Positions 346 to 16,458 of a DNA stretch of 34,643 nucleotides are shown piece by piece. Source of the DNA: Bdellovibrionota bacterium (GTDB lineage Bacteria > Bdellovibrionota > Bacteriovoracia > Bacteriovoracales > Bacteriovoracaceae); NCBI GenBank assembly GCA_030828105.1, contig JAURDE010000007.1, positions 1 through 34,643 on the forward strand, written 5' to 3'. The translations under genes and the position numbers were made by a program. Positions within the stretch are counted from its first letter, which is position 1, and every line of letters starts with the position of its first letter. Under the pieces are notes generated by a model. The model was not told the origin of the DNA. It made no database searches and saw only the letters and a program-made list of their open reading frames with translations.

Positions 346-1320
346 ATGACTGAGTTAAAAGAAAAAAAGACGATTCTAATTTTTGGTATATCTTCATTTA
401 TTGGATCTAATTTGGCAGTATTTTTAAAAAAGGATTTTAAGGTCGTTGGTACCTATTATAAAACGCCTGTGGTAATACCTGGTGTTCTTTGTATACCTTG
501 TGATGTTTTAAATAAAGAATCAGTCCAGCTTACTTTATATACTTCTAAGGCAGATTACTCGATCTATTGTGTGGGAGTTAATTCAATAATCTCTTGTTCT
601 GAAGCTGAGGGGTTAGCCGATGCTCTTAATGCCTCGGGATTATTCAATGTTGCTGAAATGTGCCAGCGATACAAATCTCAAATTTGTTATATATCACAAG
701 ACTTCGTCTTTTTAGGGGAAGATAAAGATTATTTGGAGATGGATATTCCAGATTCTGCAACTGTACTTGGTAAAACAAAATCTTCTGGAGAGTTTTATAT
801 TCAAAAGAATTCTCTGAATTATATGATTTTTAGAACTTGTCATCTTTATGGAAGACATATCAACCCTACAAAAAGAACATTTTTTGAAAACTTACAATAT
901 AACATTAAATCATCATCACCACAGTCCTTTGATTGCTATGTTAAACAAGGCTTTTTGGATGTTTACTATCTATGTCTTATCATAAAGCTGAGTATTGAAA
1001 GAAGGGCCCAGAATAGACTCATACATTTATGTAGTAGTGATATAATGACTCGTTATGAGTTTGCAAAATTGTATTGTAAAATTTTTCAAGAAAACGCGAG
1101 TCAAGTAAATAAGGGAAGATGGCCTTATCCTTTACTAAAGCTTAGGGAAGGTACTGAGGAGCTTTGGTATTATAAGCTCAATAGCAATAACCTAGAAGCT
1201 TTTCTTAATATCTATATGCCCTCTATAGAAGAGTCTCTTAATTTAAGTTTAAAGAGATATAATGGTTCTCAATCGGCTCAACATAAGAAGGCACAAGGTG
1301 GAAATATTTCATTTATCTAG
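346..1320 (+). CDS. RmlD-like (dTDP-4-dehydrorhamnose reductase family) SDR protein with altered active site
   Basis: This 324-residue protein has the extended short-chain dehydrogenase fold. A Rossmann glycine motif G-x5-G lies at residues 14-20 (GISSFIG), and the region at 115-145 matches the RmlD family (ISQDFVF, GKTKSSGE). RmlD enzymes reduce dTDP-4-keto sugars with NAD(P)H using a Thr-Tyr-Lys triad. Here the family STD becomes SQD (Gln118) and the YGRTK Tyr becomes Leu141, while Lys145 remains, so normal reductase chemistry is doubtful. It stands alone, not in a sugar operon, after the flagellin terminator. No Shine-Dalgarno site is visible before the ATG. Its 3' end overlaps the convergent minus gene by 8 bases. 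A sugar-nucleotide binding or regulatory role is possible but not shown. Confidence 0.8.
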   Translation: MTELKEKKTILIFGISSFIGSNLAVFLKKDFKVVGTYYKTPVVIPGVLCIPCDVLNKESVQLTLYTSKADYSIYCVGVNSIISCSEAEGLADALNASGLFNVAEMCQRYKSQICYISQDFVFLGEDKDYLEMDIPDSATVLGKTKSSGEFYIQKNSLNYMIFRTCHLYGRHINPTKRTFFENLQYNIKSSSPQSFDCYVKQGFLDVYYLCLIIKLSIERRAQNRLIHLCSSDIMTRYEFAKLYCKIFQENASQVNKGRWPYPLLKLREGTEELWYYKLNSNNLEAFLNIYMPSIEESLNLSLKRYNGSQSAQHKKAQGGNISFI

Positions 1321-1849
1321 AGGAAAGTCGGATAAATTCACTTAAATAGTGTCTGACCAGAGCATCGACTTCAAACTCTTCTCCTCTGAATCTCCAAGTA
1401 ATATCATTAAATGGGCCTATATGGGCCTTAACTTCATGTGATTCATTTTGGATTGAATCTTCATTTCGTAATCGAGGAGAAAAAATTTCTTTGCCGTTAG
1501 AAAGAAAAGAAATGGATATTAAGTCTGTAGACTTTCTAGAAAATACAAGACGAAGTGAGTTTCTAAAAAGCATAAAGTCGTTAACAGTATTAGCAATTTT
1601 AAAGATCTTGATTTGGCCTAAACCTTTTGCTGATGTTCTGTATTGATTAAATCTTGTGACATAAACCTCAAAACGATCTCGAAGATTATTCATAAAATTA
1701 ATGGAGGATTCCTCAAGAAAAAGTCTAGGATCAAGATGTTCATTTAGGGAAATGACACCTGATTCCTCCATGTTGAGCTCTTCAAGAGCAAGCTTTTCTA
1801 TCCAAGCAGTATTAATGTATTCTTCAGAAGTGTTTTGAATATTTTCCAT
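1313..1849 (-). CDS. Hypothetical cytoplasmic protein, 178 aa
   Basis: I do not recognise a family. The protein is acidic at the N-terminus, with no signal peptide or membrane segment. The middle is basic and hydrophobic (about residues 55-110, with FEVYVTRFNQYRTSAKG and a following helix-like stretch), and a C-terminal part contains DITWRFRGEEFEVDALVRHYL. It lies 48 bases downstream of the 6S RNA on the same strand, with no terminator or clear promoter between, so it may be co-transcribed with it, as ygfA is with ssrS in E. coli; it does not resemble YgfA. No Shine-Dalgarno site is visible. Confidence 0.75.
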   Translation of the reverse strand: MENIQNTSEEYINTAWIEKLALEELNMEESGVISLNEHLDPRLFLEESSINFMNNLRDRFEVYVTRFNQYRTSAKGLGQIKIFKIANTVNDFMLFRNSLRLVFSRKSTDLISISFLSNGKEIFSPRLRNEDSIQNESHEVKAHIGPFNDITWRFRGEEFEVDALVRHYLSEFIRLSSR

Positions 1850-2304: not shown

Positions 2305-2493
2305 ATGAAAAAGCAAATCCTTTCATTCTTAAAAGAAGAAGACGGGCAAACTTCGACCGAGTATATTTTGTTGGTTGCTGTTGTTGCCTTAATTGTGTTC
2401 AAATTTAAGGATGTGGCAAGTGCCAAACTAAATTCGATTACTCAATCTGTATTTGGTAATGCTGAGAGCTTCGTAAATGAAATGGGTAACTAA
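2305..2493 (+). CDS. flp: Flp-type (IVb) major prepilin, 62 aa
   Basis: This is a short class-IVb prepilin. A charged leader of 14 residues ends in DG, cleavage is expected between Gly14 and Gln15, Glu19 is the conserved +5 Glu, and EY is followed by a hydrophobic helix (YILLVAVVALIVFKF) that would form the pilus core. Length and composition fit Flp pilins. The subunits are cut by the peptidase at 2786 and assembled by the TadZ-TadA/TadB motor through the CpaC secretin. A strong AGGGG ribosome-binding site precedes the ATG. It is first in the operon and followed by a hairpin, the usual arrangement for an abundant pilin. Confidence 0.92.
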   Translation: MKKQILSFLKEEDGQTSTEYILLVAVVALIVFKFKDVASAKLNSITQSVFGNAESFVNEMGN

Positions 2494-2523
2494 GCTAAAC
2501 CAAATTATTTCTGTATCTTAAAT

Positions 2524-2548
2524 AAGGGGGCATTTATTGCCCTCCCTT
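2524..2548 (+). terminator. Intercistronic hairpin after the first pilin gene (possible partial terminator)
   Basis: GGGCA (2528-2532) and TGCCC (2538-2542) pair around TTTAT, and the stem extends outward with AAGG/CCTT and a small bulge. The following bases contain only scattered T, so termination would be partial, or the hairpin may protect the pilin mRNA 3' end. Confidence 0.5.
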
Positions 2549-2582
2549 GTTCTTGCTTCTAAATAATATCAATATCTTATGT

Positions 2583-2789
2583 ATGAGGTCTAAAGAAGGT
2601 CAGGCACTTTTAGAGTACTTATTGGTTTTTGGTATGATGGCCGGTATCTCGACTGCGATGGTTAAACTCATTAGTGGGTATACAAATAGTTCAATGGCCT
2701 CACTTGGCTATGCTCTATCAAATGCCCTTTCATCTGGAGTCTGTAAGTCCTTATGCTTTTATGGGAATTTTGGGAATGGTATTCCATGA
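2583..2789 (+). CDS. Second Flp-like prepilin, 68 aa
   Basis: From the ATG at 2583 the leader is MRSKEG, cut before Gln7; Glu11 and Tyr12 give the GQ-x3-EY processing motif, followed by a hydrophobic helix (LLVFGMMAGISTAMVKL). The C-terminal part is Ser/Gly rich with two Cys that could form a disulfide. I preferred this start over an in-frame TTG at 2547 because that codon lies inside the intercistronic hairpin and would give an unusually long leader; neither has a clear ribosome-binding site. The stop overlaps the ATG of the peptidase gene (ATGA), so the two are translationally coupled. Confidence 0.75.
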   Translation: MRSKEGQALLEYLLVFGMMAGISTAMVKLISGYTNSSMASLGYALSNALSSGVCKSLCFYGNFGNGIP

Positions 2790-3292
2790 TACCTCAATCA
2801 GTTTATATATTCCTTCTAATAGAGCTTGTTGCTGTATCTTATTTGGATATTTTGCATAGGAAAGTCTCGAATCTATGGCCTATTTTAAATCTTTTGATTT
2901 TCGTTATTGTTGTGACCATAGTTCCAGATGTTTATAAATTTGAATTAAAGCAATTTTTTTATTCTATTGCCTTTCTAATAGTCGGGTTTAGTTTATTCTT
3001 ATTAAAGGTTATGGGACCAGGTGATACTAAATTTTTATTTTCATTTTTTATATTAATACCAGTCTCACAACATGAAACGGCCTTTCTAGGTTTGTTATAT
3101 TTAACAATATTAATGGGTAGTTCCTTGTTTTTATATAACTCTTATCAAAATAGAAAAAAGATTTCTGAGGCTATAAAACAAAGTGATATTAGTGCAATTA
3201 AGGAGATCTATGGAACAAAATTTCCTTACGCTCCGGTTATTTTACTTTCATGGATATGGTTTGGATGGGTAAACAGAGTAGCTCTATTTTAA
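2786..3292 (+). CDS. tadV: Type IVb prepilin peptidase (TadV/CpaA)
   Basis: This 168-residue integral membrane aspartic protease of family A24 removes the leaders of the Flp-type prepilins. Both catalytic aspartates are visible: Asp21 in SYLDILHRKV and Asp80 in MGPGDTKFL (the GxGD motif). The length matches the short TadV class, which lacks the N-terminal methylase domain of PilD. About five or six hydrophobic segments are present. The start is the ATG overlapping the previous stop; an in-frame ATG at 2753 lies deep inside the pilin gene and is less likely. Its 3' end overlaps the next gene. Confidence 0.9.
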   Translation: MIPQSVYIFLLIELVAVSYLDILHRKVSNLWPILNLLIFVIVVTIVPDVYKFELKQFFYSIAFLIVGFSLFLLKVMGPGDTKFLFSFFILIPVSQHETAFLGLLYLTILMGSSLFLYNSYQNRKKISEAIKQSDISAIKEIYGTKFPYAPVILLSWIWFGWVNRVALF

Positions 3293-3576
3293 ATGAAAAG
3301 GGACAGTCAGCAGTAGAATATATTCTTTTACTTGCTGTAGTTATGTCTTTGGTAATGGTTGTCTTTAGAAATAAGACATTTCAATATTATATGGGACCTG
3401 ATTCACCTTACTTTGAAACTCTCAGAAAATATATTGAACATTCTTATCGTTATGGATCACCAATTGTAACAGGGTTAACACCCCCAGATAGTAACAGTTA
3501 TAGTGATCAGCATACTAGTTATCAATCGGAGACAGGGCAATCGAGGTTCTTTACTCCAGTGGAGCCAACACAATGA
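3265..3576 (+). CDS. Prepilin-like protein with polar tail, 103 aa
   Basis: The N-terminal leader ends in EKG, then Gln14-x3-Glu-Tyr and a hydrophobic helix (YILLLAVVMSLVMVVF), so it should be a peptidase substrate like the pilins. After the helix comes about 65 residues rich in Tyr, Ser and Pro with no known domain. It is longer than a Flp pilin and may be a TadE/F-class minor pilin. In-frame ATGs at 3250 and 3256 are alternatives; 3265 gives a leader like its paralogues. It overlaps the peptidase gene upstream and the next gene by ATGA. Confidence 0.7.
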   Translation: MGKQSSSILNEKGQSAVEYILLLAVVMSLVMVVFRNKTFQYYMGPDSPYFETLRKYIEHSYRYGSPIVTGLTPPDSNSYSDQHTSYQSETGQSRFFTPVEPTQ

Positions 3577-4106
3577 TAAAGAAAATAAAAAAAAACCAAG
3601 ACGGTCAATCGACAACAGAGTTCTTGTCTTCATTTATCTTTGCCATAGTTATTGTTTTGGTATTTTTGAAAATATCTTTTGTTATTGCTGATGGTTTTTT
3701 AGTCCACTATGCCACTTATATGGCCTCTAGGACATATCTCGTAGTTGATATTAATGCTAACTCGCCGGGGGGCTCTGATGCAGCTTCATTTCAAAGAAGT
3801 GCTCAGACTTTTTTATCATTTTTGGTACCGCGATTAGTCCCGAATTGGACGGCAAACTTACAAGTCAATAGTCCACGAAATGTAGATAATAAAGTGTTTG
3901 TGGGCAATTGGATTGAGTTTAGAAATCAGTTTGGAGTTTCAGATATAGTTGGTGGTAGAAAGCCTGTATATTTACGATCAGAATCATTCTTAGGAAAAGA
4001 ACCTACAGTAGGAGAGTGTATTGAAAGAGTTTGTGCAGCTATGAATACAGTCTCTGGAGGGGCCGATTGTTCTAAGTATACTACTTTGTTTGATAATGGA
4101 TGTTGA
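3573..4106 (+). CDS. TadE/TadG-like minor pseudopilin, 177 aa
   Basis: A basic leader ends in DG11, then Gln-x3-Glu-Phe and a hydrophobic helix, followed by an exported domain of about 135 residues with four or five Cys (in GECIERVCAAM, GADCSKY and the last residue). TadE-like proteins prime or cap Flp pili after processing by the same peptidase. The position between two other pilin-like genes, with an ATGA overlap upstream and a TGATG overlap downstream, supports this. The C-terminal domain is not one I recognise. Confidence 0.75.
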   Translation: MIKKIKKNQDGQSTTEFLSSFIFAIVIVLVFLKISFVIADGFLVHYATYMASRTYLVVDINANSPGGSDAASFQRSAQTFLSFLVPRLVPNWTANLQVNSPRNVDNKVFVGNWIEFRNQFGVSDIVGGRKPVYLRSESFLGKEPTVGECIERVCAAMNTVSGGADCSKYTTLFDNGC

Positions 4107-4618
4107 TGAAAAAGAGAAAAATAGATTTAAGTGATGAGTCTGGACAGGCAATTTTTGAGTTTATTGTCTTTATACCATTTTACTTGGTGTTTCTTGTTGT
4201 GTTTTTAACTGTTGCTGGTGCAGTAAATGGTTCAATAAATCAGCAAAAATCTACAAGAGGCTATTTCTTTTATTCAGTAAAAAATGATTCTACTGTTCCA
4301 TTCAAAAAAGACCTTGAGGAGTTAGGAAAAAATGGGATTTCCATGGTTGGGAGCTATTCATTTGGTTGGCAAAGAAGCGCAAGAGGGGCAACACCAATAG
4401 CTCCATGCTATAAAATCCCAAGTATTTTGGGCGATTCAGTTGAAGAAGAGTGTGAGGATCCAATGAATAGTGGAACAAGAGAGGCCAAATATGTAAGAGT
4501 TTTTACTACCTTTGGAGTATGCTCAAGTTCTTATACATTAAACCAAGCTGATGGAAGTTTCTTATGGGATTCCTTGGCGGGAAATTCAAGAATTTCAAGT
4601 AGTTGTACACTAAGATAA
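4106..4618 (+). CDS. TadE-like minor pseudopilin, 170 aa
   Basis: The leader ends in ESG13, followed by Gln-x3-Glu-Phe and a hydrophobic segment (VFIPFYLVFLVVFLTVAG). The remaining 130 residues are exported, with Cys in three places, suggesting disulfides. The IPFYLVFL stretch resembles TadE family members. Its ATG overlaps the previous stop by one base; an in-frame ATG at 4100 would add two residues. It is the last of five tandem prepilin-like genes and is followed by an 81-base gap with a possible internal promoter. Confidence 0.72.
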   Translation: MKKRKIDLSDESGQAIFEFIVFIPFYLVFLVVFLTVAGAVNGSINQQKSTRGYFFYSVKNDSTVPFKKDLEELGKNGISMVGSYSFGWQRSARGATPIAPCYKIPSILGDSVEEECEDPMNSGTREAKYVRVFTTFGVCSSSYTLNQADGSFLWDSLAGNSRISSSCTLR

Positions 4619-4669
4619 AGCGGAACCTTTTTGCCGGTTTATTAATCCATAACGTTCCTAGATGTAAAA

Positions 4670-4675
4670 TATAAT
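4670..4675 (+). promoter_or_regulatory. Possible internal -10 box before cpaB
   Basis: TATAAT 24 bases before the cpaB ATG, in the only sizeable gap of the tad operon after the first pilins. No convincing -35 box is seen. Confidence 0.3.
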
Positions 4676-4699
4676 TAATCTAATATTAAGGGGATAAGT

Positions 4700-5506
4700 A
4701 TGAACACTCGGGCCTTTACGTTGGCATTAGTTATAGCAGGTGTCGCCATGTTTATGGTTTATACTTATATTGAAGATCAGAAAAGTGGAATCATAAAAAG
4801 GTTTGGTACAGAAAGTTCGGTAGTAGTTGCCAAAGTCGACATTAAAGAGCTTGAGCTGATTGATGACTCTAAAGTAATGGTTAAATCAGTTCCACAAAGT
4901 TTTTTATCTCCAGGTCATTTTAAATCAGTTCGTGAGCTTGATAATACAGTTGCCACAGTCCCTATATTAAAAGGGGAACAAATAACAAAACCTAGAGTGA
5001 CTTATCCTGGTGCAAGTACAGGTCTAGCAAGACAAGTTAGTGTGGGGAAAAGGGCCATAGCAGTTTCAGTTAATGAAAAAATTGCCGTTTCAAAACTACT
5101 TAAGCCAGGAGATAGGGTGGATGTCTTGGCAGCTATTGATTATGCTGCTGGCGATAAGGCCAGACAAAAGATTAAAACCGTTCTTCAAGACGTACTTGTG
5201 TTATCAACAGGTCTAAGCATGACTAATTCTATTCCCTTAATTGGTATTAAAACGCCGAGAGAAATTAAGGCAATGAATTTAAGTACATATAGCCAGTACA
5301 ATACAGTAACTTTGGAGCTAGATCCTTTTGAAGCACAAAAGCTTGCTTTCATTATGACGTTTACTGGTAGAGACTTAAATTTAGTACTAAGAAATAATAA
5401 TGATAAAAAGTTAGTTAGAATTCAAGGTACTGGATTTTACGATATCCTGGGAAGTGATGCTGCTGCGGCAAAACAATATTTTCAAGAACAGAATAAGAAG
5501 AATTAA
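4700..5506 (+). CDS. cpaB: Flp pilus assembly protein CpaB/RcpC
   Basis: CpaB proteins are periplasmic and inner-membrane anchored, and are thought to link the Flp secretin to the cell wall and support its assembly. One N-terminal membrane segment (about residues 5-23) is followed by an SAF domain (about 38-100, with VVVAKVDIKELELID and VPILKGEQITKP) and the CpaB core (RAIAVSV, LLKPGDRVDVLA). The 268-residue length is normal. A strong AAGGGGA ribosome-binding site precedes the ATG, and the secretin gene follows after 3 bases. Confidence 0.92.
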   Translation: MNTRAFTLALVIAGVAMFMVYTYIEDQKSGIIKRFGTESSVVVAKVDIKELELIDDSKVMVKSVPQSFLSPGHFKSVRELDNTVATVPILKGEQITKPRVTYPGASTGLARQVSVGKRAIAVSVNEKIAVSKLLKPGDRVDVLAAIDYAAGDKARQKIKTVLQDVLVLSTGLSMTNSIPLIGIKTPREIKAMNLSTYSQYNTVTLELDPFEAQKLAFIMTFTGRDLNLVLRNNNDKKLVRIQGTGFYDILGSDAAAAKQYFQEQNKKN

Positions 5507-5509
5507 AAT

Positions 5510-6994
5510 ATGAAGATCATTCTTATTTTTATATTATTGTTTTACTGGTCATTGGGATTCACACAAAGTGATGAAAAAGTCGATGAAAGACAAGTGGATG
5601 TGATTTTAGGGATTGATAAAATAATTCGCTTTGATTACGTAGCCTCACCAAAAGTGCAGGTTGGTAACCCCTCAATAGTTGCATTTGAGATATTTCCTAG
5701 GAAAAAAGAAGTTACTTTTAAAGGCTTAAAGGTAGGTAAAACTTCTATCACACTTAGAAATCCAGTTGGGGATATAAGAGGTCGGTATTTGGTAAATGTG
5801 ACTGCAAATGATCAATCTGAACTCATACAAAAATTAAAAGAATTTTTAGGGCATATAGAAGGGCTTGAAATTGGTGTTAAGGGTGGAACTGTTTACTTAG
5901 GTGGTAAACTTGTGGTTCCCTCAGATATGGGCCTTATAAATTTAGTTCTTAAAAAATTTCCAGATGTAATGGAGATGGTTGAGTTATCTCCTATGGCACA
6001 AGTGTTAGTTGGTCAAAAAATGCAGAATGAAATACAAAGAGCAGGTCTACGTGATGTAACAGTAAGAGTCGTTAATAAGGCCTATTGGTTAGAAGGTGTT
6101 GTAGGATCGGCCGGTCAAAAAACTAAAGCTTTTAGTATAGCAAAGGCATATTTACCTGAATCACTTGCCTCAATTGCAGAAAGGGAACAAGCAGTACAGA
6201 AAGCTGGTCAAAAGTCTATAATTCAAAATTTTATAAATGTTAATGCCAAAAAGACACCACCAGCAATCCCAAAATTGATAAGGATTGCAGCTCACTTTGT
6301 AGAATTATCGAAAGATTATAATAGAGTTTTTGGGTTTAAGTGGAGTCCTCTCATGTCTACAACAGGAGCTTCTATACAATTTGGTAAACAAGCTTCTGAT
6401 GGATTATCTACTCAGTCGCAAGGTACTTTAGCAGGAACAATTTCTAACTTGCTTCCCAAATTAGCGTCAGCTAAGAGTGCAGGTCAAGCAAGAGTTATAC
6501 AATCTGGAATGGTTATTGTTAAAGATGGTACTCAAGCAAAGCTTGCTAAAAAGTCATCAAAGCCTTTTGCGATTGGAACCGGTGAATTTGTAAAAGCAGA
6601 AAAAGCAGAGTCAGGGTTTGATCTAGGTGTCACACCGAAAGTTCTTAGTCAGGAAAAGATCGAGCTTGCTATGGGAATAAGTGTTTCGGCAAGTATTGGA
6701 GATCCACCAGAAGTTCAATCTAATACCATCTCAACTTCAATGGTTGTAAAGTCAAAGGATAGCGCTGTAGTAGGTGGGGTAGTAATTAATCGAGACTCTA
6801 CAGAGTATGACAGAAACCCTCCCTTTGGGAATAATCCAAATCAAGGGGGAACTCCACTATTTTCTTTTTTGAGATCGAAGTCTATTACGAAAGGGAAAAG
6901 TCAATTTGTAATTTTTGTAACACCTGAAATTATAGCTAATGCAGCTTCGGGAACCGATGATATTTTGAAAAAATTTAAAAGAGGAAGAAATTAA
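5510..6994 (+). CDS. cpaC: Flp pilus secretin CpaC/RcpA
   Basis: This is the outer-membrane secretin channel through which the Flp pilus passes. A signal peptide (to about residue 19) is followed by the pilus-type N-terminal domain (DVILGIDKIIRFDYV, VGNPSIVAFEI, KVGKTSITLRN) and a BON-like region. The secretin domain covers about 255-480, including VIQSGMVIVKDGTQAKL, LGVTPKVLSQEKIELAM and FVIFVTPEII near the C-terminus. The 494-residue length is normal. It sits between CpaB and the motor ATPase gene, one base from the next ATG. Confidence 0.93.
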   Translation: MKIILIFILLFYWSLGFTQSDEKVDERQVDVILGIDKIIRFDYVASPKVQVGNPSIVAFEIFPRKKEVTFKGLKVGKTSITLRNPVGDIRGRYLVNVTANDQSELIQKLKEFLGHIEGLEIGVKGGTVYLGGKLVVPSDMGLINLVLKKFPDVMEMVELSPMAQVLVGQKMQNEIQRAGLRDVTVRVVNKAYWLEGVVGSAGQKTKAFSIAKAYLPESLASIAEREQAVQKAGQKSIIQNFINVNAKKTPPAIPKLIRIAAHFVELSKDYNRVFGFKWSPLMSTTGASIQFGKQASDGLSTQSQGTLAGTISNLLPKLASAKSAGQARVIQSGMVIVKDGTQAKLAKKSSKPFAIGTGEFVKAEKAESGFDLGVTPKVLSQEKIELAMGISVSASIGDPPEVQSNTISTSMVVKSKDSAVVGGVVINRDSTEYDRNPPFGNNPNQGGTPLFSFLRSKSITKGKSQFVIFVTPEIIANAASGTDDILKKFKRGRN

Positions 6995-6995
6995 G

Positions 6996-9098
6996 ATGGC
7001 CAAAGGTTATATTGCCTGTTTTTTAGGTGGTAAAGGTGGTGTTGGTAAATCAATGTTAGCTGCTAATTTTGCTTTTGCTTTTGCTGCAGAATCAAGAAGT
7101 AAAACACTTTTACTAGATTTCGACTCTAAAGCTGGAGGAGATCAAAATATCATTACTGGTATGACCTCTAAAAAAAATATAAAAGAATTGGGTGATTTTC
7201 CTGGTGCTATTGATGTTAGAGCTCTACAACAGTTTGTAATCTCTCATCCCGCAGGCGTCTCTTATATAGGTATGCCTAATGACCCAATGGCAGCAGCAGC
7301 GGTAAATGCAGATGGACTTGGTAAGACATTAAAGGCCGTAACAGAAATGTTTCCATTGATCGTTATAGATTGTGGAAGTGAATTAAACGATCTTTCCTTA
7401 AAGGCACTGGAGTTTGCAACGGCCATCTTTTTAGTCTGTTCTGCAGATGTTTTAGCATTAAATCAATCAAAGAGGATTTATTCGGAACTAGTAACAATGC
7501 TCTTTCCGAAGGATATGATCCAGGTTTTAGTAAATCAAGCAGTTCAAGGTCATCCCGTATCACCAGATGTTGTAGGAAAAACAATTGGAAAACCAGTTTT
7601 TTCAACCATTCTAAAAGATGACCAAACTTGTGTTCAGGCACTAAATGCAAAGAAGCCAATTGTTACGGTGGCAAAAAATAGTCCTTTTGCAAAAGGTGTT
7701 TTTGAAACTGTAAGAAAAGTTATTCAGAAAAATGTTTTTCAATCTTTAGCAAAACTTCAGAAATCTCCCGATGCAGGAAAACAAAAGAAAGGTTCAGTAG
7801 GAGATGAAAAGAAGGCCAAAAATGCCTGGATAGATCTAAAAATTAGAATACATAAATCACTCGTTGAAGAAATGGACCTTTCTAAAGATGATGATAAAGA
7901 TCCTAAGGCAAAAATAATTCTTAAGGAACAAACAAAAAAGTTAGTCGTTGATCTTTTAGGCAAAGAAGATACTAGCGGTGTTATTAATACTCGTGATGAT
8001 ATGAACCAAATGGTTAAAGAGATTCTCGATGAAGCACTTGGATTAGGCCCTTTAGAAGATATGCTCAGTAACAAAAGTATTTCTGAGATTATGGTTGTCG
8101 GTCCTGAAAAGATTTTTTACGAAGAAGGTGGAAAGATAAAAAAATCTGAAGTTATCTTTAGCTCAGATAGACAAGTTCTTAATGTTATAGAAAGAATTGT
8201 AGCACCCATCGGACGAAGAATTGACGAAAAAACACCCTATGTGGATGCGAGACTTTCAGATGGTTCAAGAGTCCATGCTATTATACCTCCCTGCGCACTT
8301 AATGGAGGTACAATTACAATAAGAAAATTTCCTGAAAATAGACTCACCTATAAAGACCTCGTTAAATTTGGATCAGTTACTCAAAATATGGCCGATTTCC
8401 TACGTATATCAGTAGAGGCACATAGAAATATTGTTGTTAGTGGAGGTACAGGCTCTGGAAAGACTTCATTAATAAATATCCTAGGAAGTTTCATTCAGGC
8501 AAATGAAAGGGTTATTACCTGTGAAGACTCAGCAGAACTTGATTTTCCTCAGGACCACGTTGTTAGTCTCGAGACAAAGCCGGCATCTCTTGAGGGAGAA
8601 GGTGGTGTTGATATTAGGTGTCTAGTTAAGCAAACACTAAGGATGAGGCCTGATAGAATTGTTATTGGAGAGTGCCGGGGTGGTGAAACATTAGATATGT
8701 TACAGGCCATGGGTACAGGTCATGATGGCTCAATGACAACAGTCCACTCCAATAACCCTAGAGAGTGTATAGGGCGTCTTACAGTTTTAGTTCAATATGC
8801 AGGAGCAGGACTTGAGCCTAAGGCCATAAAAGAAATGATCTCTAAGGCCGTTCACTTAATAATTCAACAAACAAGATTAGATGACGGATCTCGAAAGCTA
8901 ATTTTTATTACAGAAATTGGTGGTATGCAAGGGGACGTGGTCACTCTTCAGGATATATTTGCCTTTAAACAAGAAGGTATAGATAAGAATGGAAAAATAA
9001 TAGGAAAATTTCAGGCAAGCGGATTTATACCTAATTTCATAGAGAAGCTTGAAGCTAAAGGGTACAACATACCTCGGGGTTTATTTAGAAACGAATAA
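6996..9098 (+). CDS. Fused TadZ (MinD-like) - TadA (CpaF) ATPase
   Basis: Two tad proteins are fused in one 700-residue chain. Residues 1 to about 250 are a ParA/MinD-type ATPase with the deviant Walker A GGKGGVGKS (11-19) and LLLDFD, equivalent to TadZ/CpaE, which sets pilus position; the receiver-like N-terminal domain of CpaE is missing. A charged linker follows (about 255-310). The rest is a full secretion ATPase TadA/CpaF: Walker A GGTGSGKT (about 483-490), Asp box ITCEDSAELDF, Walker B RIVIGECRGGE and the His box TTVHSNNP. TadA powers pilus extension from the cytoplasmic face. The frame is continuous, with a good GAGGAAG site only before the first ATG. TadB follows 2 bases later. Confidence 0.93.
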   Translation: MAKGYIACFLGGKGGVGKSMLAANFAFAFAAESRSKTLLLDFDSKAGGDQNIITGMTSKKNIKELGDFPGAIDVRALQQFVISHPAGVSYIGMPNDPMAAAAVNADGLGKTLKAVTEMFPLIVIDCGSELNDLSLKALEFATAIFLVCSADVLALNQSKRIYSELVTMLFPKDMIQVLVNQAVQGHPVSPDVVGKTIGKPVFSTILKDDQTCVQALNAKKPIVTVAKNSPFAKGVFETVRKVIQKNVFQSLAKLQKSPDAGKQKKGSVGDEKKAKNAWIDLKIRIHKSLVEEMDLSKDDDKDPKAKIILKEQTKKLVVDLLGKEDTSGVINTRDDMNQMVKEILDEALGLGPLEDMLSNKSISEIMVVGPEKIFYEEGGKIKKSEVIFSSDRQVLNVIERIVAPIGRRIDEKTPYVDARLSDGSRVHAIIPPCALNGGTITIRKFPENRLTYKDLVKFGSVTQNMADFLRISVEAHRNIVVSGGTGSGKTSLINILGSFIQANERVITCEDSAELDFPQDHVVSLETKPASLEGEGGVDIRCLVKQTLRMRPDRIVIGECRGGETLDMLQAMGTGHDGSMTTVHSNNPRECIGRLTVLVQYAGAGLEPKAIKEMISKAVHLIIQQTRLDDGSRKLIFITEIGGMQGDVVTLQDIFAFKQEGIDKNGKIIGKFQASGFIPNFIEKLEAKGYNIPRGLFRNE

Positions 9099-9100
9099 TT

Positions 9101-9994
9101 ATGGATGCTATAGTAAGACTATTAGGACAAAATGGAATTGTAATAATTATCGGCTTGATGGTTTTTATACCCGTTTTTAGAAAGGCGAATAAATTATTTA
9201 CTTGGATTGAAGACCAAACGTTCGGAACGCGAAACTTTATAATAGAAAAACTTAATCTTCTTTTTATCGATATTAAGGAAGAAAAAGTAACATACGGATT
9301 AATAGGTTTATCTTTTGGAGGAGGATCTTTAGTCATTATTTCAATTGGCTTTTTGACAAGCAACTGGATAGTTGCTTTAGTTATCGGTCTTATATTCTTC
9401 TTTATAGCTTTTAAGATACCTAAGCCTATTATTAATCAAATGATTAAGAAAAGGCATCAGATGTATGCAAGTCAAATGGTAGATGCATTAACACTACTCT
9501 CAAATGGGATAAGAGCAGGGTTATCTGTTCCCCAATCATTAGGAATGGTTGTCGATGAAATGCCAGGGCCAGTTTCACAAGAATTTGGGCTGATGTTACA
9601 ACAAAATAAAATTGGTGTTCCACTAGAGGAATGCTTCGAAAATTTAGCTGTAAGAGTTCCTCTTGAAGATAATGATATGTTTGTTTCGGGGGTGAATATT
9701 CTAAGAGAAACGGGTGGAAACTTGGCTGAAACGTTCGATACTATTGTTGATGTTATACGGGAAAGAGTACGCTTAAAACAAAAAGTAGAGCAATTTGTTG
9801 CCCAAGGTATGTTTCAGGGGATTGTTATTGCGGGGATGCCATTTGGTATAGGAGCGATATACTTTTTCACTGACCCGGATTCTATGATAAAACTATTTAC
9901 TCATCCCCTTGGAATTGCAATGTGTGTGGTAGCTTTTCTCTTTGATGCAGTCGGGTTTTTCGTCATTTTAAAGATAGTTGACATTAAAACTTAG
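9101..9994 (+). CDS. tadB: TadB, type II secretion F-domain platform protein
   Basis: This inner-membrane platform protein works with TadA in Flp pilus assembly. A transmembrane helix near the start, two more near residues 66-105, a cytoplasmic F domain (QMVDALTLLSNGIRAGLSVPQSL ... ETGGNLAETFDTI, split here) and two C-terminal membrane helices follow TadB topology. The 297-residue length is normal. Most tad loci have a paralogous tadC next to tadB; here the next gene is the YD-repeat gene and no TadC is found in the window. Confidence 0.9.
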   Translation: MDAIVRLLGQNGIVIIIGLMVFIPVFRKANKLFTWIEDQTFGTRNFIIEKLNLLFIDIKEEKVTYGLIGLSFGGGSLVIISIGFLTSNWIVALVIGLIFFFIAFKIPKPIINQMIKKRHQMYASQMVDALTLLSNGIRAGLSVPQSLGMVVDEMPGPVSQEFGLMLQQNKIGVPLEECFENLAVRVPLEDNDMFVSGVNILRETGGNLAETFDTIVDVIRERVRLKQKVEQFVAQGMFQGIVIAGMPFGIGAIYFFTDPDSMIKLFTHPLGIAMCVVAFLFDAVGFFVILKIVDIKT

Positions 9995-11702: not shown

Positions 11703-11927
11703 ATGAAAAAAAATATGATGTTGTTAATAAGTATTTTTCTATTTGCGAATTTAGCATTTGCAATTGAAGACTCCGAAGCCGATCGTTTGGGAGAAAATTT
11801 GGAAGATTGTCCTAAGGGTTGTGAGTGTATCATTGATACTGCACGAGGAAAGAGTGATAAGTCATCGATAATAAGGGTGGATGATACTCCTATGGAAAAA
11901 GAAGATAGCGAAACAATTAGCAAGTAG
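11703..11927 (+). CDS. Small secreted acidic protein, 74 aa (member A of a three-gene family; Bd0108-like by position)
   Basis: A signal peptide (MKKNMMLLIS... cut after FAFA-like AFA, about residue 20) is followed by an acidic mature chain of about 54 residues. It has LGEN, three Cys (CPKGCEC), the pattern C-x3-I-x3-R and the terminal tail TISK. The same pattern recurs in the proteins at 15986 and 16258. It lies 10 bases after the YD-repeat gene with an AGGAG site, so they are co-transcribed. This is the position of Bd0108 in the hit locus, also a small secreted protein next to the YD-repeat protein. No known domain is recognised, and it differs from its paralogues by an extra Cys-rich insertion. 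Confidence 0.8.
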   Translation: MKKNMMLLISIFLFANLAFAIEDSEADRLGENLEDCPKGCECIIDTARGKSDKSSIIRVDDTPMEKEDSETISK

Positions 11928-11956
11928 TTGCCATACTGCTTCCTTAAAAATATAAT
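11928..11956 (+). promoter_or_regulatory. Sigma70-type promoter of the aldehyde dehydrogenase gene
   Basis: TTGCCA (11928-11933), a spacer of exactly 17, and TATAAT (11951-11956). It starts directly after the stop codon of the small secreted protein. An interrupted palindrome, TCCCC-GTGT ... ACAC-GACA-GGGGA (11956-11990), lies between the -10 box and the ATG. Confidence 0.75.
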
Positions 11957-11993
11957 CCCCGTGTTAAGTTACTTTTGACACGACAGGGGAAGC

Positions 11994-13367
11994 ATGAATA
12001 TCCAAGAAGTAGTTTTGGCCCAAAAAGAGTTTTTCAACTCAGGTGAAACCTTATCTCTAGAATATAGAATAGATAGATTAAAAAAATTAAGAGATGTTAT
12101 AGAGAATAATATAGATCTCATTCATGAAGCACTTAAAGCGGATCTTAAAAAACCTCTTTTTGAAGCATTTACTGCTGAAACAATGTTTGTAATTAATGAA
12201 ATAAATAAGGTTCTAAAAAACTTAAAAAGGTGGATGAAACCTAAAAAAGTATCACCTCCAAAAGTTCATTTACCTGTGGAATGCTTAATTAGACCAGAGC
12301 CATATGGTACTATATTTATAATTTCACCATGGAACTACCCATTTCAATTATTAATATCTCCTCTTGTGGGGGCCCTTGCTGCAGGAAATACTGTAATCCT
12401 TAAGCCAAGTGAGTTAGCACCAAATGTTTCTAAAGTAGTTAATAAGTTAATCTCTGATAACTTTCCTAAAGAAGAAATCGCTGTAATTGAGGGGGGACCG
12501 GATGAGACAAATGCGGTAATTGATTCAAATGTTGATTATATTTTTTATACAGGATCGACTAGTGTTGGAAGAATAATCTACCAGAGGGCCGCAAAGTTTT
12601 TAACCCCTGTAACACTTGAGTTAGGTGGTAAATCACCTTGTGTTATTCAAGACGTAAAAAGTTTGAAGTTAATTACAAAAAGGATCGTCTGGGGAAAGTT
12701 TATGAATGCTGGTCAGACTTGCATAGCACCTGACTATATTCTAATGCCAGAGAAATATAAAGACGATTTTATAAAATATTTCAAAAAACATGTGGAGTCC
12801 TTTTATGGAGAGAATCCCCATCTAAGTAAAGACTATTCTAGAATTATTAGCCGTAGACACTATGAAAGATTAAAAGGATTTTTGGGGGATGTTAAAGTTC
12901 ATTCAGGTGGTAATGTAAATGATGATGACCTTTATATTGAACCAACGCTAGTAGAATGTGAAGATTCATCACCTCTTTTACAAGAAGAGATTTTTGGGCC
13001 CATTCTTCCTATTGTAAAATCTGAAAGTCTCGATCACTCCATCCAATATATCAAAGCGAGACCTAAGCCTTTGGCCTTGTATAACTTTAGTAATTTAAAA
13101 TCTAATCATGATAAAATCATAGCGCATACGAGTTCAGGGGGAGTTTGTCTTAATGATACTCTTCTTCAAATCACAGCTGATCACTTACCCTTTGGCGGTG
13201 TTGGTGATAGTGGGCTAGGTGCATATCATGGGAAATTTTCTTTTAATACTTTCTCTCATCAAAAGTCGATAATGAAGAGATCTTTTAAATTTGATGTTCC
13301 GCTAAGATATCCTCCATTTCCAAAAAACCTTAAATTGATTAAATTACTTTTAAAAAAATTAGGTTAG
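11994..13367 (+). CDS. Aldehyde dehydrogenase, class 3 type
   Basis: The 457-residue enzyme oxidises an aldehyde to a carboxylate with NAD(P). The ALDH3 signature is clear: ISPWNYPFQL and AAGNTVILKPSE near residues 103-138, the FYTGSTSVG cofactor loop, the general base Glu near 209 in LELGGKSP, and the catalytic Cys near 243 in NAGQTC. Those two positions are the same as in animal ALDH3 enzymes. A hydrophobic/basic C-terminal stretch (about 430-457) could associate with membranes as in fatty-aldehyde dehydrogenases; the substrate cannot be told. It has its own promoter and a GGGGA ribosome-binding site, and so is a separate unit among the secreted-protein genes. Confidence 0.93.
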   Translation: MNIQEVVLAQKEFFNSGETLSLEYRIDRLKKLRDVIENNIDLIHEALKADLKKPLFEAFTAETMFVINEINKVLKNLKRWMKPKKVSPPKVHLPVECLIRPEPYGTIFIISPWNYPFQLLISPLVGALAAGNTVILKPSELAPNVSKVVNKLISDNFPKEEIAVIEGGPDETNAVIDSNVDYIFYTGSTSVGRIIYQRAAKFLTPVTLELGGKSPCVIQDVKSLKLITKRIVWGKFMNAGQTCIAPDYILMPEKYKDDFIKYFKKHVESFYGENPHLSKDYSRIISRRHYERLKGFLGDVKVHSGGNVNDDDLYIEPTLVECEDSSPLLQEEIFGPILPIVKSESLDHSIQYIKARPKPLALYNFSNLKSNHDKIIAHTSSGGVCLNDTLLQITADHLPFGGVGDSGLGAYHGKFSFNTFSHQKSIMKRSFKFDVPLRYPPFPKNLKLIKLLLKKLG

Positions 13368-13806
13368 TTTTTCGTCTAACTTAGAGCATGGGTAGATTTT
13401 AAAAGAGAGTATTTTTGAGGCTTCCAAGTTTGATTGGGTTCAACTCTGCGCATTAATTACCTTACCTTTTATTCAAGAGGTTTCTATCAAAATTTTTTTA
13501 AAGTTGTAGATAAGGTCATTGATTAGCTTGTTATAAGGCTCCGCGTCTAAAGAATAAGGTCCAAAAGAAGACTCTTTTTATAGGGCCAATATATAGCGTT
13601 TTCAGCGGGTTAACTATCAACAACTCTCTTTGTCAGAGTTCTGTTAAGAATGACCTATTTGTTAAATAGAAACAAAATATTCCAATTATCACCTAACTTG
13701 AATAAGGCCTTTATCAGAAATAGATTGCATTTATAGAAAAAATATAGTTTTTTTCACGAAACAAAAGTTTGAATAGCTAAACCATAATTCTTGTAAGGAG
13801 GAATTG
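13368..13806 (+). other. 439-base non-coding region before the secreted-module operon
   Basis: No reading frame with a ribosome-binding site is seen on the plus strand. It holds three small hairpins: GTTAG/CTAAC at the dehydrogenase stop (13363-13380), AAAAGA/TCTTTT (13563-13578, followed by T) and AACTCT/AGAGTT (13622-13640). The promoter of the next operon must lie here but no clear -35/-10 pair could be fixed; TTGCAT at 13725 lacks a partner at normal spacing. A long leader or small RNA is possible. Confidence 0.5.
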
Positions 13807-14148
13807 ATGAAAGTTTTTAAGAAGGCCCTTATGGTTTCTCTAATTGCTAGTGCAGTAAGTGGAAATGTAATGGCAGGTGATGAGGACATAACTCTTTTAG
13901 GTCTAGATAATAATGGTAACGAAATTGAGATGCCAGTAAAGTCTAAAAGATTTAAAAAAAGAGTAAATAAAATCCTAAAGGCTTATTTAGGTGAGGCCAT
14001 CCCAGCTCTAGATAGAGCAATTAGAAGTGATTCAAAACTTAAACTACGAGAAGTTGATCTTGGTGTAAGTGTGAAAATGGGATTTGAAGTTCCAGAAGTT
14101 TTTGATGCATCTGTTGAGCCTGGCATTTATGTTAAGCTTGGTAATTAA
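13807..14148 (+). CDS. Small secreted protein with C-terminal copy of the recurring module, 113 aa
   Basis: The protein has a typical signal peptide ending in VMAG (residues 20-24), a mature acidic segment, a basic amphipathic helix (about 45-70) and a C-terminal stretch of alternating polar and hydrophobic residues (about 78-112, LREVDLGVSVKMGFEV to GIYVKLG). That last part resembles the module repeated in the next two genes. The ATG at 13807 follows a strong AAGGAGG site; an in-frame TTG one codon earlier is ignored. It is the first gene of a three-gene operon (20-base gap to the next). Codon use is biased to CTT, GTT, GTA and GGT. No known family is recognised. Confidence 0.8.
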   Translation: MKVFKKALMVSLIASAVSGNVMAGDEDITLLGLDNNGNEIEMPVKSKRFKKRVNKILKAYLGEAIPALDRAIRSDSKLKLREVDLGVSVKMGFEVPEVFDASVEPGIYVKLGN

Positions 14149-14168
14149 TTATTAGGGAGATACAAGAA

Positions 14169-15461
14169 ATGAAACTAAAAAATATTTTAGCAATTGGTAC
14201 ACTTAATTTATCACTTATTGGAAGTGTTTTTGCTGGTACTCTGAACCCAGCTTGGCATTTACTTCCAGAAGACAAAGGTTACACAGCTTCTATTGAAAAA
14301 GCAGCTAGCAGTGATAATCTTGAATCTATTGAATCCTTTCTAGATATTTATACTGGAACTCACCATGATATTCTTGAGGAGCAAGCATCTTACTCAACTG
14401 ATAAAGGTGATGGTTGGAAAGTTAAAAGAGTAAGAACTTGGTTAGGCCTTGGTGCTTCTGGAAAAATTGGTGTTGTTGGTTTTGGCGGTGGAAAAACTGT
14501 TAAAGTTGATTGGGAGCCAAAGAAAACTGCAAAGTCTAATGAAATTGTTGAAGAGGATACTGCAGACGTAGTACTTAATGAGTATACTGAGAAGTCTGAT
14601 CTTGATGCTCAAATTGAGCCAATCATCAAAAATCTTGTTAAGTCTGGAAAAGTAAAAAATGAAGCTGAGCTTAGAAAAAATCTTAAAGCTAAAGCTGTTG
14701 AATTCCATGAGTATACAAAGGGTATGTACTCTGTTGGTGACTCTGTATGGTATGCTAAAAAACTTAGACTTGACCTTACAATCAGTGCTTCTGGTAAAAT
14801 TAAGACTTTCGTAGTTAAAGTTGGTGGAGATGTAAGAGTAAGACTTGAATGGGTAAGACTTGCTTCAAAATCAAAAGATAAAGCTAGAGCTGATAAGAAA
14901 AGTATTATCGCAAGGTCTACTTCAAAACTTATCACTAAGCTTTCTCAAGATCTAACTGCTGCGACTTCTTCAGTTTCTGGTAAGTACGGGTTTGACCTAA
15001 GTGAAGTAAAGCTTTGTCTTGGAATGACTGCAGAAGGTAAAGTAGTAGTTGCTTCTGTTAAAGGTGGAATCAATCCATGTGTATACTTTGGTAGACAAAG
15101 AATCACTAAGTCTGACAAAGCTTCTTATGCAATTGGAAATGATGATACTTTCCCAATGGCAAAAGAAAATAGTGAAGGTCTGTTCGAGTACGCATCAAAG
15201 AACAAAATTGCTTATGAAAAAGGTTCTAAAGAGTCTATCTTCAAAGTTGATAGAAAGAAATTTAGAAGAGGGATCCAAAAAGCTTATAAGTTTGGTATGA
15301 AGTTCGCTAAAAAAGTAACTAAAAAACGCTATGCTAAGAAGAAGTGGGGAATTAAGGTAGTTAAGCCATCTTATTCTCTTTCAGTTTCTGGAAGTGTGGG
15401 AGTTGCTAAGCTTTCTGGTAAAGCAGAGCTTGAATTAGTATTTAAAAACCTAGCGATGTAA
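14169..15461 (+). CDS. Secreted protein with four related beta-type modules, 430 aa
   Basis: A signal peptide (cut after SVFA, residue 22) precedes a lysine-rich mature protein with no domain I know. Four stretches of about 35 residues resemble each other: 83-117, 194-230, 273-309 and 393-426. Their shared pattern is an aromatic/basic entry (GWKVKRVR, VWYAKKLR), then alternating strands around ASGKI or AEGKV, a Gly-Gly turn and a strand ending in an aromatic (VDWE, LEWV, VYFG, LVFK). This fits repeated amphipathic hairpins, as in surface or outer-membrane beta structures. Helical or charged linkers separate them. All roughly 25 Ile codons are ATT or ATC, none ATA, unlike the neighbouring genes, which suggests very high expression. 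Confidence 0.82.
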   Translation: MKLKNILAIGTLNLSLIGSVFAGTLNPAWHLLPEDKGYTASIEKAASSDNLESIESFLDIYTGTHHDILEEQASYSTDKGDGWKVKRVRTWLGLGASGKIGVVGFGGGKTVKVDWEPKKTAKSNEIVEEDTADVVLNEYTEKSDLDAQIEPIIKNLVKSGKVKNEAELRKNLKAKAVEFHEYTKGMYSVGDSVWYAKKLRLDLTISASGKIKTFVVKVGGDVRVRLEWVRLASKSKDKARADKKSIIARSTSKLITKLSQDLTAATSSVSGKYGFDLSEVKLCLGMTAEGKVVVASVKGGINPCVYFGRQRITKSDKASYAIGNDDTFPMAKENSEGLFEYASKNKIAYEKGSKESIFKVDRKKFRRGIQKAYKFGMKFAKKVTKKRYAKKKWGIKVVKPSYSLSVSGSVGVAKLSGKAELELVFKNLAM

Positions 15462-15489
15462 AAAACATTAGAATTAAAAGGATATAAAA

Positions 15490-15789
15490 ATGAAATATTT
15501 AATGACGTTGGCCCTTGCCCTTTCTTTTTCAACCGGTTTTGCTGCTGATAAGCCAAGCCTAGGAGAGTGGATTACAAATGAAGTTGATTCTCAGGTTGAA
15601 GAATTCAATAAAATGGAAGAAGCCGAAGCGACTATGGTTCAAGGTTGGTACTTTAATAAGGTTAGAGTAAGACTTAAAGCAACTGTAGGTCTTGATCTTC
15701 TTGCTAAATTTGAAGTTAAGCCATATATCGAGCTTCATTTCAAAAGAGGGAATCCAGAAGGATATAGTAGCTACAAGCCACAAATGTAA
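15490..15789 (+). CDS. Small secreted protein with one copy of the recurring module, 99 aa
   Basis: A signal peptide ends in GFAA (about residue 19). An acidic helix (22-47) is followed by one module at 52-86, starting GWYFNKVRVR and ending IELHFKR, very like modules 1 and 2 of the 430-residue protein upstream (GWKVKRVR, VWYAKKLR). The C-terminus is short and polar. An AAAAGGA site precedes the ATG, 28 bases after the previous stop, and a strong terminator follows, so this is the last gene of the operon. No known family is recognised; a partner or assembly subunit of the larger protein is a reasonable guess. Confidence 0.8.
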   Translation: MKYLMTLALALSFSTGFAADKPSLGEWITNEVDSQVEEFNKMEEAEATMVQGWYFNKVRVRLKATVGLDLLAKFEVKPYIELHFKRGNPEGYSSYKPQM

Positions 15790-15817
15790 TAAAGGCTAAA
15801 ATTTTCTAAGATAATGA

Positions 15818-15845
15818 GGGCCATCGAGAGATGGCCCTTTTTTTT
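15818..15845 (+). terminator. Strong rho-independent terminator after the secreted-module operon
   Basis: GGGCCATC and GATGGCCC pair perfectly around GAGA and are followed by eight T. Confidence 0.97.
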
Positions 15846-15985
15846 AAATAAAATTTATTTAATACCGACTAAATTTTAGGCAATGATTCAAAGATCAACA
15901 TTAACTCATAAAAAAAATCAGTAGGTTAGACCATCATTTTTGGCATATTAAATGCATATTTAAGAGTAAGTATAAGGGAGGAATT

Positions 15986-16183
15986 ATGAAACTAATACTT
16001 AGCTTAATTGTCTTAATGTCAGTATCATCTGGGTTTACTCAAGAAATGGGGGAGTCTCAAGCAGCAAGCTGTGATCAATCCATTCACCTTGGTAGATTTC
16101 AAACAGAAAAAGTTAGAGATATCTCTTCTGAGGAAGTTCAGGATGAAGTCGTTGTTGAAGAAGCTAAAACTATTTCTAAATAA
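15986..16183 (+). CDS. Small secreted acidic protein, 65 aa (family member B)
   Basis: The signal peptide is cut near residue 18 (SSGFT/Q). The mature part of about 47 residues holds MGES, a single Cys in C-DQSIHLGR, an acidic stretch (EEVQDEVVVEE) and the tail KTISK at the very end. Spacing and motifs align without gaps to the core of the proteins at 11703 and 16258. A strong GGGAGG site precedes the ATG. It stands 140 bases after a terminator, so it has its own promoter, which could not be fixed. The single Cys could allow a disulfide-linked dimer or a mixed disulfide with its neighbour. Confidence 0.78.
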   Translation: MKLILSLIVLMSVSSGFTQEMGESQAASCDQSIHLGRFQTEKVRDISSEEVQDEVVVEEAKTISK

Positions 16184-16200
16184 GATTTATTTCTTAGGAC

Positions 16201-16227
16201 TGAATATTTAGATTAAAGAACCGATAA
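16201..16227 (+). promoter_or_regulatory. Candidate FliA-type promoter between family members B and C
   Basis: ACCGATAA (16220-16227) matches the FliA -10 at 7 of 8 bases. At the canonical 11-base spacing lies TGAATATT, 5 of 8 with the -35. The next gene starts 30 bases downstream. A TATAAT at 16233-16238 is an alternative sigma70 -10 without a good -35. Confidence 0.4.
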
Positions 16228-16257
16228 GGAGGTATAATTCTACCTTTGAGGTCCTTT

Positions 16258-16458
16258 ATGAAGTGGATATTAATTCTTTTATTTGTAGCTTTTCCGGCTT
16301 TCTCCGCAGAGCTTGGAGAGGATGTGAGTAATATTGAATGCACAAAGAGCATTCATAGACCTCGCCCCACTATATCTCAAGTTAAAACGAATATTGAGTT
16401 TTCAGAAGATTTTCCTGATGAGGAGGCCACTCAGGAAGCATCTACTATCCAGAAATAA
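16258..16458 (+). CDS. Small secreted acidic protein, 66 aa (family member C)
   Basis: The ATG at 16258 has a GAGGT site 6 bases upstream and gives a classic signal peptide ending in AFSA; an in-frame TTG at 16246 is the alternative. The mature chain has LGED, a single Cys in C-TKSIHRPR, an acidic part (EDFPDEEATQE) and the end STIQK. It is most like member B (C-x2-SIH-x2-R in both). A small inverted repeat AGGTA/TACCT lies just before the start. Its stop abuts the stop of the convergent minus gene. Function is unknown. Confidence 0.78.
   Translation: MKWILILLFVAFPAFSAELGEDVSNIECTKSIHRPRPTISQVKTNIEFSEDFPDEEATQEASTIQK

Follow-up and report, generated by a model that had tools for sequence, protein, structure and literature searches.

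C-terminal pentapeptides that agree within genomes on small exported proteins at the Bd0108 position of Bdellovibrionota

The window analysed here, a stretch of 34,643 nucleotides (nt) from contig JAURDE010000007.1 of a Bdellovibrionota bacterium, contains a locus organized like the hit locus of Bdellovibrio (Bd0109/Bd0108). A cluster of Tad pilus genes is closed by a Bd0109-like YD-repeat gene, and 11 nt behind it starts the gene of a small exported protein, A, at the position of Bd0108, as the initial annotation had recognized. Two further small exported proteins, B and C, are encoded downstream, and the three proteins end in TISK, TISK, and TIQK (Table 1). Across the genomes compared, the last residues of such proteins match one another inside each genome but vary from one genome to the next, and this co-variation is confined to positions -1 to -5. 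In our view the last five residues rather probably represent a species-private recognition tag, which would be read by one co-evolving partner. The gene bd0108 is the classic switch gene from predatory to free growth and has been described as unique to Bdellovibrio. In our comparison, its slot is occupied across much of the phylum by one to three exported proteins that bear such tails. The most specific selection acts on their free C-terminal pentapeptide, which had not been singled out in the open-access literature searched and offers a possible bait for the missing partner.

C-terminal tails agree within genomes

The genome that contains the window (2.78 Mb in 253 contigs) is of the Bacteriovoracaceae type, and its close relatives belong to the Bacteriovoracaceae and Halobacteriovoraceae. 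Of 59 relatives sampled, 52 had a YD gene, as did 329 of the 369 genomes sampled from the phylum, most of them metagenome assemblies. Small exported, cysteine-containing open reading frames (ORFs) follow this gene in 83 distinct family loci, three of them in 51 loci, two in 21, one in 8, and four in 3. These counts rest on a home-made signal peptide rule and include a few spurious ORFs, with four dropped by hand in later tests. Several relatives share the order YD gene, gene1, gene2, aldehyde dehydrogenase, gene3, a convergent ORF of ~116-120 amino acids (aa), a response regulator, and Lon. In the window, A represents gene1. B and C are placed in the gene3 slot between the aldehyde dehydrogenase gene and the convergent ORF and do not adjoin the YD gene.

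Sets of tails found together in single genomes are VAPR/VAPR/TVTR, three times SNTSK, twice SKERG, TIDG/SIDG, and ATVR/TIVR. Over 73 genomes, the BLOSUM similarity between the last four residues of gene1 and gene2 proteins was 5.26 versus 0.18 after permutation (z=10.9, 0/2000), and own-genome pairs were also more similar than pairs made between a genome and its five nearest relatives (0/2000 sign flips). Position by position, z was 7.2, 6.0, 5.6, 6.2, and 4.4 from -1 to -5 and 1.9 at -6. Residues -5 to -8 taken together gave a weaker signal (z=5.0), and blocks further upstream stayed below z=2, none of them exceeding the nearest relatives. A partial Mantel test of gene1 tails against gene2 tails, given YD identity, yielded r=0.20 (p=0.001), as compared to p=0.34 ten residues upstream. 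An independent set of 23 loci drawn from the phylum's other families showed the agreement as well (z=5.2, 0/5000), and the mostly Bdellovibrio-type set of 19 loci gave z=4.4 by itself. Several choices of the analysis, among them the tail length of 4-5 residues and the ORFs to be dropped, were made once the data had been seen. The loci of other families and the unlinked protein described below come closest to independent checks; the latter was found by a tail search, so that its genome of discovery (L063) is not an independent datum. A function of the free C-terminus had been proposed in the initial annotation, and the C-terminus indeed proved to be the selected part of these proteins.

Part of this pattern might be expected if the tails merely followed lineage composition or phylogenetic inertia and had no function. 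Small disordered proteins evolve freely, and the C-termini of other locus proteins, used as controls, showed a small, phylogeny-like signal (CpaF z=2.4, CpaC 2.0, TadB 1.6, CpaB 0.0). However, the tail effect amounts to ~5 BLOSUM units and is small at least 8 residues upstream in the same proteins, it exceeds the agreement with the five nearest relatives, and the unlinked protein still reaches z=4.7 within clades. The permutations model the tree only partly, the nearest-relative and within-clade versions being partial remedies. All in all, we deem inertia a highly improbable explanation.

Gene conversion or recent duplication could also have copied 3' ends between neighbours, an idea that fits the tandem arrangement and the fact that gene2 and gene3 are often close paralogues. 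Yet gene1 and gene2 have unrelated bodies and similar tails, and the unlinked protein follows the same tails. Moreover, codon identity at shared tail residues (55/107) is near the 43.5 expected from codon usage, with a slight excess. In 4 of 12 cases, a serine of the shared tails has an AGY codon in one gene and a TCN codon in the other, and TISK is encoded by ACA ATT AGC AAG in A and by ACT ATT TCT AAA in B. These differing codons argue for selection on the protein and against DNA copying as the main cause, which we therefore hold to be hardly credible.

Unlinked carriers and the descent of A, B, and C

A search of the L063 genome for its own tail retrieved an unlinked exported protein of 256 aa that ends in SSNTSK. 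In 16 genomes (13 in an earlier test set), the tails of this ~260-aa protein follow the locus tails of their own genome (z=5.9, 0/10000), also when permutation was restricted to the inside of two clades (z=4.7, 0/10000), and no tail-type signal was found 5 or 10 residues upstream. The tail SNTSK is matched by an identical locus tail. ATNVSK occurs with ATNISK and AKNVSK (L067), QTIGK with KTISK (L065), SSNR with SSGR (L050), and VTIER with TIVR (L006). The family has an N-terminal CDD motif (L220, positions 748-1518, plus strand; relatives in L222-L225 and L259-L274) and matched no Pfam or NCBIfam model above the cut-off. A search for additional tail carriers in the 10 kb around the locus gave an own-genome rate about equal to the cross-genome rate. 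Further TISK-stop matches in the genome of the window were examined and are not genes, as is the case for KERG-stop matches elsewhere in the L099 genome.

One genome (G014) encodes tandem exported paralogues of 190-209 aa (L353, positions 6626-7817, minus strand; L391; L389) that contain a DC-x6-7-[SG]R stretch. The ends of two of these three proteins (KTIGK, QVSGK) resemble the tails, and the third ends in DAER. A relative, found in one other genome only (L056), ends in GAVQK and lies beside an exported protein ending in DSVQK. The DC-x6-7-[SG]R stretch ahead of the tail (L353) gives the impression of recalling the gene2 proteins.

The three proteins of the window were found as the initial annotation had described them, each with its ORF, a hydrophobic N-terminal signal peptide (by the home-made rule), an [LM]GE[NSD] motif, a readable C-x3-I-x3-R, and an acidic, polar C-terminal region. 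From their similar spacing and the fixed last residue it had argued for common descent, which holds for one pair. The alignment score of B and C was 64 versus a shuffled mean of 25 (p<0.0005) and, after removal of the tails, 50 versus 23 (p=0.0005), and by this measure B and C are paralogues. The same shuffle test gave p=0.04 for A-B and p=0.09 for A-C with tails, but p=0.81 and 0.52, respectively, without the last five residues. Thus, as far as the alignments tell, A has the tail and the general layout in common with B and C, but not a demonstrable body. The cysteines are arranged as C-x3-C-x-C in A, and B and C have one cysteine each. The proposed core, C-x3-I-x3-R, is readable in all three proteins, but the nearest positional relatives of A (L007 and L041) read CTCITDINR and lack it, so that this part of the match between A and the other two is probably due to chance. 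In these two loci, the A-like gene is directly followed by a C-like gene whose product ends in KTISK.

No significant link emerged from profile comparisons among gene1, gene2, and the gene1 and gene2 of Bdellovibrio (probability ~1% for gene1-type versus gene2/3-type), and the suggested profile link to Bd0108 failed, the Bdellovibrio gene1 profile scoring A at 10.0 bits and the best shuffled decoy at 11.1 bits. In hold-out tests, gene2 profiles recovered some unseen gene2 proteins above all shuffles, and gene1 profiles recovered almost none. Exactly one cysteine past the signal peptide is present in 127 of 128 gene2/3 proteins (the filter demanded at least one). Of these 128, 69 match G[EQ]-x(2-9)-C-x(5-9)-R (shuffle mean 1), as do 6 of 73 gene1 proteins (2.2 in shuffles). 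Scans of A, B, C, and the other tail carriers with Pfam and NCBIfam hit no family model, in line with the earlier remark that no described family is known to show the pattern, and C had no match in a phage collection. Homologues that keep both core and tail across species had been named beforehand as a test of the proposed family. The tail, however, is not conserved between species and is also found on an unrelated, unlinked exported protein, changing in concert per genome. We therefore take a tail held in common as an argument for a common partner and not for descent.

Bd0108 and a candidate partner of the tails

Control of piliation and host independence, disorder, and binding to Bd0109 are known for Bd0108 (PMC4267844, PMC3818213). 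According to nuclear magnetic resonance (NMR) data obtained with a construct that had the native free C-terminus, Bd0108 binds Bd0109 via residues 24-66, and residues 89-101 are unaffected (PMC4267844). Host-independent strains contain bd0108 frameshifts near residues 70-73 (PMC3818213; PMC11323537), which keep the Bd0109-binding half and replace or lose the C-terminal third. In one Bdellovibrio-type genome (G155, locus L150, a public assembly) the gene1 slot holds a Bd0108 relative that is apparently frameshifted after ~50 residues; either the switch gene is naturally broken there or the assembly contains a sequencing error.

The tails might serve as docking elements for the Rhs-like YD shell itself, with the shell pocket and the tails co-evolving. 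The genes adjoin, encapsulation of Bd0108 by Bd0109, to which it binds, has been proposed (PMC4267844), and the model of the YD protein resembles Rhs shells. The insensitivity of residues 89-101 to Bd0109 speaks against this idea and suggests that the reader of the tail is probably not the Bd0109/YD shell. Also at odds with docking are the carriers far from the YD gene and a scan of YD alignment columns for co-variation with the tails, which, judged by the spread across columns, revealed none that was convincing, the best columns reaching just 3.3 standard deviations among 340. We regard docking to the shell as improbable.

Together, the NMR data, the frameshifts, and the tail co-variation suggest a two-ended adaptor. 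The tag that we favour would be carried by a limited number of mostly disordered, Sec-exported proteins, which would comprise one to three hit-locus proteins beside the YD shell (A, B, and C in the window) and, in relatives, at least one unrelated exported protein elsewhere. One partner common to the carriers of a genome, located in the envelope or outside the cell, would read their free C-terminus, and when this partner drifts, all tails would drift along. In Bdellovibrio, the YD shell holds the N-terminal half of Bd0108 and leaves the tail free. The gene1 and gene2 proteins would accordingly have their N-terminal half on the YD shell and their tail on a second, species-matched partner, for example a sorting or processing factor. 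We infer that such adaptors may couple the state of the Tad pilus to the growth decision.

Several observations weigh against this interpretation. The genome of the window has no match to the ~260-aa protein, and its T-I-x-K-stop sites, of which about half were checked with S, Q, A, or T favoured at the third position, revealed no further exported carrier. In 1.6 Mb of G014, tail-like ends occurred in 12 of 587 ORFs with a signal peptide versus 6 of 900 without, which suggests a small tag set, and the cargo set is indeed small and poorly defined. The tails of Bd0108 (GTGRQ) and its neighbour in strain HD100 (SKGWN) barely match, showing that the rule is loose in places, and the frameshift mutants of Bd0108 remove more than the tail. 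Some of the co-variation is phylogenetic, as control C-termini reach z=2.4. Finally, no receptor was found for the tails.

Alternatively, the proteins may be peptide pheromone precursors, from which the C-terminal pentapeptide would be cut off as a species-specific density signal produced from several genes at once, comparable to Phr/Rap and PapR/PlcR. Their small size, the signal peptide, the confinement to five C-terminal residues, the fast diversification between species, and the agreement within genomes would all fit, and host-independent growth of Bdellovibrio was reported to be density dependent (PMC3818213). No cleavage site was recognized before the tail, however, a receptor is not known, and exported proteins of ~190-260 aa with the same tail would be unusual precursors. 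Phr-type peptides are, in addition, a Gram-positive theme. A pheromone thus appears unlikely, if less so than docking to the shell.

A by-product of the comparison concerns a published RNA. In the hit locus of HD100, a 'small non-coding RNA' at 96455-96716 is raised in all bd0108 mutants and has been proposed to be a regulator. Our genome G154 is HD100 in the published coordinates, as its cyclic di-GMP-I riboswitch (1073868-1073951, minus strand) lies inside the published merRNA (1,073,741-1,074,185), and its gene1 contains the published C-terminal sequence of Bd0108. The RNA encloses a second small exported ORF, conserved and 66 aa long, (L138, G154:C1, 96683-96483, minus strand) that has a Shine-Dalgarno sequence (AAGGAG) ahead of its start, a signal peptide, and a second-gene position kept in Bdellovibrio relatives. 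Compared to G160 it has 18 substitutions, distributed 2/1/15 over the codon positions. Judging from these features, the RNA very probably encodes a protein, and a role of the RNA itself is also possible. The 'non-coding RNA' would then be recast as the mRNA of a second small secreted protein. A more far-reaching proposal, which we put forward tentatively and consider possible rather than likely, is that Bdellovibrionota have a genome-wide, species-private five-residue C-terminal address on a small and mixed group of Sec-exported proteins, that one fast co-evolving reader links the Tad/hit locus to the switch between predation and growth, and that the HD100 RNA whose level rises in bd0108 mutants serves as the mRNA of a second carrier in the switch.

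The window and known systems

Table 1. Features of the window that bear on the small exported proteins and their locus.
Feature	Coordinates	Strand	Basis and remarks
A, gene1-type small exported protein, 74 aa, ends ETISK	11703..11927	+	Directly 3' of YD gene (Bd0108 position); positional relatives in Bacteriovoracaceae and Bdellovibrio
C-terminal pentapeptide of A, E-T-I-S-K (GAA ACA ATT AGC AAG)	11910..11924	+	Codons, co-variation
B, gene2/3-type small exported protein, 65 aa, ends KTISK, one Cys after signal peptide	15986..16183	+	ORF; homologous to C
C-terminal pentapeptide of B, K-T-I-S-K (AAA ACT ATT TCT AAA; synonymous to codons of A)	16166..16180	+	Codons
C, gene2/3-type small exported protein, 66 aa from ATG 16258, ends STIQK	16258..16458	+	ORF; relative is L007 gene2 (RELGEDPSNVECTNSIQKSRP...KTISK); 70 aa if started at the alternative TTG 16246
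C-terminal pentapeptide of C, S-T-I-Q-K (TCT ACT ATC CAG AAA)	16441..16455	+	Codons
Bd0109-like YD/RHS-repeat exported protein, 539 aa	10073..11692	+	Pfam RHS_repeat (E=1.1e-20) and DUF6531; closes Tad cluster
Tad (type IVb pilus) genes: pilin-like ORFs, prepilin peptidase, RcpC/CpaB, secretin, CpaE-CpaF-like ATPase, T2SSF	2305..9994	+	Upstream of YD gene; domain matches
Aldehyde dehydrogenase (Pfam Aldedh)	11994..13367	+	Separates gene1 and gene3 positions, also in several relatives

Modelled with AlphaFold2, the YD protein reaches a mean predicted local distance difference test score (pLDDT) of 85, and its best PDB matches in Foldseek are Rhs shells or cores (RhsA 7q97, E=7.8e-21). Combining YD/RHS repeats with a predicted shell fold, the protein qualifies as a Rhs/YD shell on the basis of this model. 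The template modelling scores (TM-scores) against the Rhs matches are low (0.2-0.3), so that the likeness concerns the type of repeat and not the whole shell. A Cys-Cys pair at residues 370-371 is found in 54 of the 83 family loci and is absent from the Bdellovibrio-type set; with this distribution, it is not a general partner for the single cysteine of the small proteins. Between the aldehyde dehydrogenase and B, three exported proteins of 114, 430, and 99 aa are encoded (13804-15789, plus strand), for which no homologues were found at E<=1e-4 among the ORFs of the longer loci of relatives. The 430-aa protein has a weak, sub-threshold Pepco match. A 6S RNA (Rfam RF00013, 62 bits) is located upstream of the Tad cluster at 1899-2079 on the minus strand.

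The arrangement had been glimpsed before through Bd0108 and through BMS_0183/BMS_0184 of Bacteriovorax marinus SJ. The latter are two small neighbours, with signal peptides, of the Bd0109 homologue BMS_0182 and show the same arrangement as reported here; they were noted just as lacking significant homology to Bd0108, and neither a family nor tail co-variation was described (PMC4267844). In the open-access literature searched, we found nothing on the generality of the gene1/gene2 tandem, the co-variation of the tails, the unlinked carrier, or coding by the small RNA region.

Bd0108 of HD100 resembles A in being a small, Sec-exported, cysteine-containing protein encoded directly after a Bd0109-type YD gene in a Tad locus, and it has, like A, B, and C, a GE(D) motif before the cysteine. 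According to the mutant evidence, its C-terminal third is needed for function. Unlike the three proteins, it has 101 aa and a central CxxC disulfide, which is matched neither by the C-x3-C-x-C of A nor by the single cysteine of B and C, and it shows no profile-level similarity to them. Bd0108 was also described as a single copy, whereas two to three copies with agreeing tails are the rule here.

Phr and PapR precursors are short and exported, and their few C-terminal residues are species- or strain-specific. The variable, selected C-terminal end has its counterpart in the co-variation at about -1 to -5, but in the Bdellovibrionota several unrelated proteins of up to ~260 aa carry one tail. The C-terminal domain of type IX secretion systems, PEP-CTERM, GlyGly-CTERM, and MYXO-CTERM are C-terminal signals on otherwise unrelated exported proteins of a genome. 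The hydrophobic helix and basic residues of the latter three are absent from A, B, and C with their acidic, polar C-termini. The tails comprise five residues, involve no folded domain, and differ between species instead of being conserved. If true, a tag that is private to a species and shared by unrelated exported proteins would add a new pattern to the known C-terminal signals.

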